Source: Myxococcus sp. RHSTA-1-4
Lineage (GTDB): Bacteria > Myxococcota > Myxococcia > Myxococcales > Myxococcaceae
Direction: 5' to 3'
DNA length: 64,000 nt
Assembly (NCBI RefSeq): GCF_020037125.1
Contig: NZ_JAIQDG010000017.1
Location: 124,001-188,000 of the forward strand
Shown: one piece after another, positions 53,408-56,179 of the stretch
Position numbering within the stretch: position 1 is the stretch's first letter
How the letters are laid out: every line of letters begins with the position of its first letter
Notes under the pieces: model-generated
Seen by the model: only the letters and a program-made list of their open reading frames with translations
Told to the model about the DNA's origin: nothing
The model's database searches: none
Position numbers and translations under genes: made by a program

Positions 53408-54697
53408 ATGTTGGGCACCGTCCTCAAGGGTGGTTACGTCGTCGAGCTGGAGCCCGCGCTGGTGGAGCGTGTGGACCTGCGCATCGAGGGTGAGCGCATC
53501 GTCGCGCGCGGGCCGGACCTGACGCCCGCGGCGGACGACGAGGTGGTCGCGCTCTCCGGCAAGCTCGTCTTCCCGGGGCTCGTCAGCGCGCACCACCGGC
53601 TCCACGCGGTGCTCGGCCGCGGCATGCCGCGCCCGGCGCTGGAGAGCTACCAGGACATCGTCGAGAAGGTGGTCTGGCCCTACGAGAGCGCGCTGGATTT
53701 GGACGCGGTGCAGGTGGCCGGGTGTGCCGGCGGCCTGGAGGCCCTCCAGTGCGGCACCACCACGGTGTGTGACTGGCACTCCTCGCCCAAGGCCGTGTCG
53801 GGCTCGCTGGTGCGGCTGGCGCGCGGACTCCACGAGGTAGGTGTGCGTGGCGTGCTGTCCTACGCGGTGTCGGACCGCATGGGCGCGCTGGGCCGCGAGG
53901 AGGGGCTGGAGGAGACGGTCAGCTTCGCGAAGAAGGCGAAGGGCCGCTTCCGCGGGCAGGTGGGCGCGGGGCCCTGCTTCACGTTGGGGCAGGATGCCCT
54001 CCAGGGGCTGGTGGAGGCGCTGCAGGCCCTGGGCACCGGCGGGCTGCACCTGCCGCTCGCCGAGGACCCGCTGGACGAGCGCCTGTCCACGGAGCGCTTC
54101 GGCGCGTCGCCCGTGGCGCGGCTGCTGGAGGCGGGGCTCTTGTCCCCCAGGAGCCAGCTGGCGCACGTGGGCCACCTGGAGTGGGCGGACCTGGCGCAGG
54201 TGATTGCCACCGGCGCGTGGATTGTCCACACGCCGCGCGCCAACCAGGGGCTGGAGGTGGGCTACGCGCCGGCCCTGAAGTTCGGCCACCGGGCCACGCT
54301 GGGCGCGGACGCCGTGTCCGCGGACCTCTTCGCGGAGGCGCAGGCGGCGTACCTCCGCTCGCGCGAGGCGGGGCAGCCCATCGATGTGCTGCGCTACCTG
54401 GCCAACGGCCACCGGCTGGCGTCGCAGCTCTTCGAGACGCCGGTGGGCCCCATGCGCGAGGGCGCGCTGGCGGACCTGCTCATCCTGGACTACCTGCCGG
54501 CCACGCCGCTCACCGCGGAGAACCTGGCGTGGCACGTGGTGTTCGGCCTGGGCAGCCGGCACGTGGAGGCGGTGATGGTGGACGGCGTGTGGCGCATGTG
54601 GGCGCGCCGGCCTCTGTCCGTGAATCCCACGGTGGTGGCGGAGCAGGCGCGCGAGGCCGCCGCCGCGGTGTGGGCGCGCATGGCCGAGGCGAAGTAG
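53408..54697 (+). CDS. SsnA-like amidohydrolase with altered metal ligands
   Basis: The 429-residue protein aligns from memory with E. coli SsnA along its length: [64 protein letters not shown] and a final [12 protein letters not shown]. SsnA is an amidohydrolase-superfamily protein found in selenium- and purine-related clusters. Here the H-x-H metal pair reads HHR, and the later HIHAAED motif reads HLPLAED, so the metal site is changed and activity doubtful. His in LAHVGHL and the Asp of LGAD remain. The next gene, 46 bp on, is a probable selenoprotein. Confidence 0.8.
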
Positions 54698-54743
54698 GCC
54701 CCGCTCCTTGCCTTCCCGCCGGGAAGCCCGTCAAATCCCGGCC

Positions 54744-55286
54744 ATGCTCATTCCAGTGCTCGTCGCGGGGCTCTTCAGTGGAGCCATTCCGCAAGTCGGG
54801 GACACGGCGCCGGACTTCACGGTGAAGGACACCGCCGGCAACGTGTACACCCTGTCGGAGATGGTGAAGCAGGGGCCCGTCATCCTGGCCTTCTTCCCCA
54901 AGGCCTTCACAGGGGGTTGAACCCGCGAGCTCTCGGCGTACCGGGACAGGTACTCGGACATCGAGAAGCTCCACGGCCAGGTCCTGGCCGTCAGTATGGA
55001 TGATTCGGAGACGCTCGCGCGCTTCAAGGCCGAGCTGAAAGCACCGTTCCCCTTCATTCCCGACCCGGAGGGCAAGGTCATCGCGGCGTATGACGTGAAG
55101 ATGCCGCTCTTGTCCCTACCCAAGCGGTACACGTTCGTCATCGGCGAGGGACGGAAGATATTGAAGGTGGAGTCCGGCAACGACGCCATCGACCCCAATG
55201 GGGCGATTGTGTCGTGTCCCATCCGGAAGCCCGGCTCGAAGTCAGCGGGCGCGGACGGGGGGACGCCGGACGGAGGGGCGAAGTAG
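54744..55286 (+). CDS. Redoxin-family selenoprotein (in-frame TGA read as Sec59)
   Basis: One frame runs from ATG 54744 to TAG 55286 interrupted only by TGA at 54918-54920. Read through, the 180-residue protein is an AhpC/TSA-type thioredoxin-fold protein: [65 protein letters not shown]. The TGA sits exactly where the peroxidatic Cys of FxPxAFTxxCTxE is expected. A hairpin with a G-starting apical loop lies 22 bases after the TGA, as in bacterial SECIS elements. The start is hydrophobic, perhaps a signal or anchor. It is most likely a selenocysteine peroxidase; a nonsense pseudogene is the alternative. Confidence 0.8.
54927..54971 (+). promoter_or_regulatory. SECIS-like hairpin after the TGA codon
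   Basis: Nested stems: GAGCT (54927-54931) with AGCTC (54967-54971), CTCG (54932-54935) with CGAG (54962-54965), and an apical stem GTACC (54938-54942) with GGTAC (54949-54953) closing loop GGGACA. The loop starts with G and begins 22 nt past the TGA, within the spacing known for bacterial SECIS elements that bind SelB. Confidence 0.6.
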
Positions 55287-55303
55287 CGGGCCCTTCGCGC
55301 GCC

Positions 55304-56179
55304 TCACGCCTCGCGCGAGGCGCGCCACCCGCGCAGCACCCAGAGCTGCGCGGCCACCATCGCCGCGGTGACGAGGAACATCACCCACGTCATCGCGGAC
55401 GCGTACCCGAGGCGCAGGTACTCGAAGCCGTTCTGGTAGATGTAGAGCGGCAGGAAGGTGGTCGCGTAGCGCGGGCCCCCCTGGGTGATGACGAGCGCGG
55501 GGACGAACGTCGTCTGCAGGCTGACCACCACGTCGCGAGCGGCCAGCAGCGCCAGCGTGGGCGCCATCAGCGGCAGCGTCACCCGGCGGAAGACGGTGAG
55601 CGCGCCGCCGCCTTCCAGCTCGCACAGCTCGTACAGCTCCTCCGGCAGCTCGCGCCGCGCGGCCAGCAGCACCACGAACACCTCGCCGAGCTGGAAGACG
55701 GTGAGCGCCACCAGCGCCCCGCGCGCGCCCCAGGGCGTGAGCAGCCACCCGCTGTCCGCCACGCCCACCGCCTTCAGCCCGAGCGCCAGCGGCCCGTACA
55801 GCGGGTTGAGCAGCCACAGCCACAGCAGCGCATAGGCGATGTCCGGCACCACGGTGGGCAGGAACACCGCGGACCGCGCCAGCCGCCCACCCTTGTGCAG
55901 CAGCAGCGCCAGCCCCAGGGCCAGCGCCAGCCTCAGCGGCACCGCCAGCGCGGCGAACAGCAGCGAGTTGCCCAGCGCCGTCCAGAAGAGCGGGTCGTCC
56001 CATAGCCGGAGGAAGTGCGCCGCGCCCACGAAACGGGGGGCGCTCAGCGCGTCGTACTCCGTGAAGGCCAGCCCCAGGGCGAGCAGCGCGGGCAGCCCCA
56101 CCAGCAGCGCCGCCGCCACGAGGAACGGCGCCGCCAGGAAGAGCATGGCCTCCCGGCCGTGTGAGGCGCCCGCCTTCAT
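55304..56179 (-). CDS. ABC sugar transporter permease (MalF-like)
   Basis: The 291-residue inner-membrane protein has about six membrane helices and the EAA loop that contacts the ATPase (ELCELEGGGALTVFRRVTLPL, Gly at the standard place). The N-terminal FLAAPFLVAAALLVGLPALL helix is typical of CUT1-family MalF-type permeases. It overlaps the upstream binding-protein gene by four bases and is the last gene of a three-gene operon (permease, binding protein, permease) with no ATPase. Confidence 0.92.
   Translation of the reverse strand: MKAGASHGREAMLFLAAPFLVAAALLVGLPALLALGLAFTEYDALSAPRFVGAAHFLRLWDDPLFWTALGNSLLFAALAVPLRLALALGLALLLHKGGRLARSAVFLPTVVPDIAYALLWLWLLNPLYGPLALGLKAVGVADSGWLLTPWGARGALVALTVFQLGEVFVVLLAARRELPEELYELCELEGGGALTVFRRVTLPLMAPTLALLAARDVVVSLQTTFVPALVITQGGPRYATTFLPLYIYQNGFEYLRLGYASAMTWVMFLVTAAMVAAQLWVLRGWRASREA

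Follow-up and report, generated by a model that had tools for sequence, protein, structure and literature searches.

The window, a stretch of 64,000 nucleotides from Myxococcus sp. RHSTA-1-4, harbors on its forward strand a gene (54744–55286) that is predicted to encode a TxxU peroxiredoxin selenoprotein, a kind already known, within which it forms a new orthologous group. The selenoprotein reading follows from the codon at the active site, which among relatives is TGA, TGC or TGT only, from the presence of the selenocysteine (Sec) machinery, and from a downstream hairpin that is kept in the loci with TGA outside one family. A selenocysteine peroxiredoxin decoded by SelB with the aid of this hairpin, equipped with a likely Sec59–Cys158 pair and descended from a Sec-containing ancestor, is very probably the joint explanation. 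In the proposed mechanism SelB and Sec-tRNA(Sec) would decode the TGA at 54918–54920 as Sec, aided by the hairpin at 54933–54957, and Sec59 in its P-x3-T-x2-U pocket would attack the peroxide and be converted to a selenenic acid. The latter would most likely be resolved by Cys158 to a selenenyl-sulfide, which a thioredoxin-type reductant would then reduce.

Reading frame, site 59 and selenocysteine machinery

The predicted coding sequence comprises 180 residues and ends in TAG. Its sole internal stop in translation is the TGA at 54918–54920 (forward strand), namely residue 59, the predicted Sec59 at the peroxidatic position of the P-x3-T-x2-U motif. A single frame broken by TGA alone at the peroxiredoxin Cys position had been claimed from the letters of the DNA, and this is confirmed by the translation and by a Pfam AhpC-TSA match spanning the TGA (residues 18–139, 6.5e-32, 110.5 bits versus a gathering score of 26). 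In the relatives proline and threonine of the PxxxTxxC/U motif are both present in 88 of 96 proteins, and position -3 is threonine or serine in all 96. A conserved active-site arginine is a further peroxiredoxin motif; the corresponding R128 is invariant in 33 aligned sequences. Comparison with six close relatives gives dN/dS values of 0.03–0.09 upstream and 0.13–0.28 downstream of the TGA; purifying selection acts on both sides. Among the best 80 of 97 relatives, the closest named one is Pyxidicoccus fallax with 96% protein identity, which places the source genome probably within the Myxococcaceae, near Pyxidicoccus. The NCBIfam equivalogs (PRK09437, PrxU, AhpC and others) all score below their curated cut-offs, and because the nearest model reaches 60.8 bits versus 140, it is plausible that automatic annotation misses or splits the gene; the finding corrects a gene that standard annotation likely truncates.

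The codon at site 59 was compared in two sets of relatives. In a scan of named genomes, of which the best 80 of 97 relatives were kept, TGA, TGC or TGT occupies the aligned column in 80/80. Of 145 genomes searched within the order, 114 gave a match, and 90 loci from 87 of these, together with the window and 25 named-genome loci, make up a set of 116 loci, all of which (window included) carry TGA, TGC or TGT. After setting aside 20 loci identical in the codon itself, the 120 nt before it and the 90 nt after it, among them the window itself (L100) and L120, 96 distinct myxobacterial loci remain, with 47 TGA, 45 TGC and 4 TGT. TAA, TAG or another sense codon occurs at the site in 0/96 distinct loci and in 0/116 loci read. 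Other stop codons at this site in relatives had been named beforehand as what would speak against a selenoprotein; none is seen among the 80 relatives or the 116 loci, and the restriction to TGA, TGC and TGT exceeds chance. A phylum-wide search matched 117 of 195 genomes, six of them outside the order. In Acidobacteria, Methylomirabilota and Bacillales MAGs, some peroxiredoxin-like genes (L071, L072, L074, L075, L093) likewise carry TGA at this position.

That the TGA is a true stop, leaving either a pseudogene or a short product of 58 residues followed by a separate downstream ORF, is very improbable. Standard-code ORFs do exist at 54708–54920 and 54996–55286, and single-sequence folds of the hairpin are unexceptional, but TGA recurs in 47/96 distinct loci with an open and conserved downstream frame under purifying selection, TAA and TAG never take its place, and the Sec machinery is present. 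A sequencing error as origin of the TGA was considered and rejected.

The source genome (11.24 Mb in 134 contigs) contains selA (561.5 bits), selB (295.5 bits, or 319.7 with a neighbouring piece) and selD (374.2 bits), each over its curated cut-off, as well as a tRNA-Sec (72 bits, over the cut-off) that ARAGORN also calls as tRNA-SeC with anticodon tca. The sequence-only reading had proposed looking for selA, selB, selC and selD, and with selA, selB, selD and tRNA-Sec all found over cut-offs its selenoprotein interpretation is supported. The SelD gene (L018 1531, G000:C22) is itself interrupted in frame by a TGA, at HCAG-U-AAKL, and its terminal stop codon is TGA as well; SelD is thus a second predicted selenoprotein, and UGA is predicted to serve both as Sec codon and as stop in this genome. 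The best FdhA match of the source genome (765.8 bits) is without an internal stop, and a weaker FdhA-like match (L195, G000:C112) has one TGA inside.

Insertion of an amino acid such as Cys or Trp at the UGA by a standard tRNA would agree with Cys being the alternative residue at the site. This possibility is even less probable than a true stop, given that the source genome has tRNA-Sec, selA, selB and selD, that selA is present in 40/40 well-complete genomes with the Sec form, and that UGA also ends the SelD gene.

Candidate SECIS hairpin

The candidate bacterial SECIS element (54933–54957, forward strand) is put forward on the basis of hairpin conservation and of a published model. Its upper stem GUACC/GGUAC pairs 54938–54942 with 54949–54953; a bulged C lies at 54937, and the lower stem is UCGG/UCGG. 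The loop GGGACA (54943–54948) begins 22 nt after the TGA, so that the hairpin noticed earlier, with a G-starting apical loop at this distance, is borne out. The 25-nt segment folds with -9.6 kcal/mol. In the 58-nt stretch 54918–54975, however, the single-sequence minimum moves to another register, as it can in longer stretches, and the case for the hairpin therefore rests on comparison and not on that fold.

The SECIS criteria given in a 2026 review (PMC13188914) comprise a loop of 3–9 nt, a stem of 4–16 bp, a G in the first two loop positions, a spacing of 16–37 nt and an MFE of -7.5 or lower. In our own implementation of these criteria, the window hairpin satisfies the model. So do 43/43 Sec loci outside family f2, versus 555/860 synonymous randomisations and 17/49 Cys loci. 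Family f2 consists of five loci (L185–L189), which are excluded from the counts of hairpin pairs; in its four Sec loci (L185–L187, L189) the common hairpin is absent, and three of the four fail the SECIS model.

All seven consensus pairs are formed in 33 and six pairs in 10 of the 43 Sec loci outside f2, so that at least six of seven pairs are found in 43/43 Sec loci versus 11/48 Cys loci. Six Cys loci retain all seven pairs (L107, L113, L139, L142, L144, L145). The loop starts with GG in 41/43 of these Sec loci, and the same hairpin sequence is found again across Sec clades. A similar difference is seen in the codons of the R-D-R segment, where the first Arg codon is CGG in 41/43 Sec loci versus 10/31 Cys loci having R-D-R; the pair CGC/CGC, commonest in the Cys loci (10/31 with R-D-R), occurs in no Sec locus.

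Tests at the level of single loci gave little signal. Single-sequence folding compared with synonymous randomisation yields a mean z of -0.74 for Sec and -0.12 for TGC loci, with p<=0.05 in 1/47 Sec loci, and a per-locus pair-count test reaches p<=0.05 in only 1/43 Sec loci; both are weak because GC-rich coding sequence folds anyway. Phylogenetically independent pairs number 4.3 for and 0 against the link between hairpin and Sec (median p 0.125), a comparison that is underpowered. Compensatory changes at the hairpin positions are almost absent among the relatives compared. A search of 54500–55500 against Rfam (E<=1) returned only a mascRNA match on the other strand (19.6 versus 42.5 bits), which is at chance level.

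Evolution of the Sec and Cys forms

After masking of the Sec/Cys column, a tree was calculated from 96 rows of the ingroup and 7 of the outgroup. On this tree the form has to change 10 times, and well-supported branches force at least 7 of these changes. If Sec is placed at the ingroup root, 10 losses are enough. Sec is probably ancestral in the myxobacterial clade and was probably switched to Cys independently 10–12 times; these numbers are gene-tree counts, which could shift with gene transfer or with the paralogous copies of G045 and G048. Ancestral Sec would have been converted by single-base changes (TGA to TGC or TGT), after which the hairpin would decay.

Repeated gain of Sec from Cys, instead of its loss, is improbable. 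Gains alone would need 21 events versus 10 losses, and a Sec root is cheaper in 200/200 bootstrap trees (losses-only 10–12, gains-only 19–23, 5–95% range), a count made without the outgroup states. The Cys loci with the full 7-pair hairpin, listed above, are as expected of remnants, and the recurrence of an identical hairpin sequence across Sec clades likewise stands against gain. In favour of gain, all but one of the seven outgroup rows used have Cys, and the table of a 2006 survey (PMC1794560) lists for Prx five switches from Cys to Sec and none in the reverse direction.

The switch to Cys took place mostly in genomes retaining the Sec machinery. Among genomes of at least 90% completeness, with two genomes having both forms counted twice, selA is present in 40/40 with the Sec form and 37/38 with the Cys form; the two Sec-form genomes missing a selA match are both incomplete (80% and 87%). 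In the one exception among the Cys-form genomes, G077 (100% complete, two contigs), none of selA, selB and tRNA-Sec is found over cut-offs, and its gene (L142) has TGC together with a complete 7-pair hairpin relic. A close sister pair is formed by Archangium violaceum (L025) with TGA versus A. lansinium (L023) with TGT at the site. Two Archangium-like genomes of one genus hold both a Sec and a Cys copy (L118/L145 in G045, L120/L144 in G048); the Cys copies L145 and L144 adjoin an SsnA-like gene, and none was found upstream of the Sec copy L118.

Sec-to-Cys switching as such is already known: the 2006 survey reports it for four families, with SECIS relics in some cases and in hosts retaining Sec decoding (PMC1794560). 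The 2026 review calls the reversal rare, mainly concerning FdhA and SelD (PMC13188914). One gene family in one order would thus provide 10–12 switches versus none for peroxiredoxins in the 2006 count (PMC1794560). If true, the order would be a natural replicate experiment on why selenium is dropped. Its close Sec/Cys sister pairs, and the hairpin relics in Cys genes, offer matched enzymes from nature with which to test what selects for selenium in a peroxidase.

Catalytic pair, gene context and relation to known peroxiredoxins

Beyond site 59 the protein contains a single cysteine, the candidate resolving Cys158 (codon 55215–55217, forward strand). Exactly one Cys is found beyond this site in 96/96 distinct proteins, which have few others; its offset from site 59 is 99 in 88/96 and within 96–105 in 96/96. 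Position +5 is Cys in 0/96 distinct proteins, the residue there being S, T, K, Q, A or E. In the 16 outgroup relatives, +5 is Cys in 10, and a Cys near offset 99 is found in one (L068, offset 98). As invariance is what a resolving residue predicts, the lone invariant second thiol is taken as the resolving Cys, and Sec59 and Cys158 likely form the catalytic redox pair. It is less likely, though to be reckoned with, that the selenoprotein is a 1-Sec enzyme like AhpE with Cys158 in a structural or partner-binding role. AhpE, a 1-Cys peroxiredoxin by PDB title, is indeed among the closest folds, and Cys158 is located past the last strand, where model confidence drops; a single Cys after the site in 96/96 proteins with otherwise almost none argues instead for the Sec59–Cys158 pair.

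At the N-terminus, about residues 1–14 (54744–54785, forward strand) form a hydrophobic, uncharged, signal- or anchor-like segment. A strongly hydrophobic stretch of nine residues precedes the redoxin domain in 91/95 loci, in a region of low model confidence, which suggests export of the protein or membrane contact. A promoter-like TTGCCT-17-TCAAAT (54708–54736, forward strand) of modest conservation ends 7 nt before the ATG. An evident ribosome-binding site is absent in 54708–54743, many relatives having a similar layout, and this suggests that the mRNA may be leaderless.

The conserved upstream neighbour (53408–54697, same strand) is an SsnA-like amidohydrolase, which ends 46 nt from the peroxiredoxin gene. 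Its score against TIGR03314 ("putative selenium metabolism protein SsnA") is 283.6 bits, below the cut-off of 455.5. A homologue is present at 66/96 loci, with Sec and Cys forms alike, although not directly adjacent at L156 and L162.

TxxU peroxiredoxin selenoproteins are an established family, for which the 2026 review cites the Eubacterium acidaminophilum enzyme; the string "myxo" is absent from the main text of that review (PMC13188914). The 2006 survey counts three selenoprotein Prx in Anaeromyxobacter dehalogenans (PMC1794560), so that relatives of the window gene may already be included there. Among the papers listed by searches on selenoproteins, selenoproteomes or selenocysteine in myxobacteria, none is, judged by title, about the window gene. 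Measured against the 2006 tabulation and the main text of the 2026 review, the family itself is known, and new are the repeated Sec-to-Cys reversal in a peroxiredoxin and the Cys partner. Chances are about even that the myxobacterial proteins constitute a distinct subfamily, which would be characterized by the Sec59 and Cys158 pair, possibly by export or membrane binding, by an SsnA-like partner, and by ancestral Sec replaced by Cys at least 7 and probably 10–12 times with the machinery kept.

The structure model (mean pLDDT 84.8) allows a comparison with characterized enzymes. A resolving Cys at +5 is typical, though not universal, of PrxQ/Bcp. Members of this group, M. tuberculosis BcpB (5epf) and Sulfolobus Bcp1 (3drn), are closest both in sequence (5epf, 2.5e-20) and in fold (TMt 0.85–0.88), whereas in the myxobacterial family the +5 Cys is missing in 96/96 and Sec replaces Cys. 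M. tuberculosis AhpE has a TMt of up to 0.87 and a sequence match of 8.9e-13 (1xvw), but in contrast to this 1-Cys peroxiredoxin the myxobacterial proteins have a second, invariant Cys. The thioredoxin-dependent PrxU (NF040737) shares the peroxiredoxin fold with a partial match of 43.5 bits versus a cut-off of 270. With the bacterial selenoprotein Prx (PF00578, TxxU) the predicted protein has in common the PxxxTxxU motif, the AhpC/TSA fold and a peroxidatic Sec, and the myxobacterial family differs from these in its lone C-terminal Cys and its many Sec-to-Cys switches.
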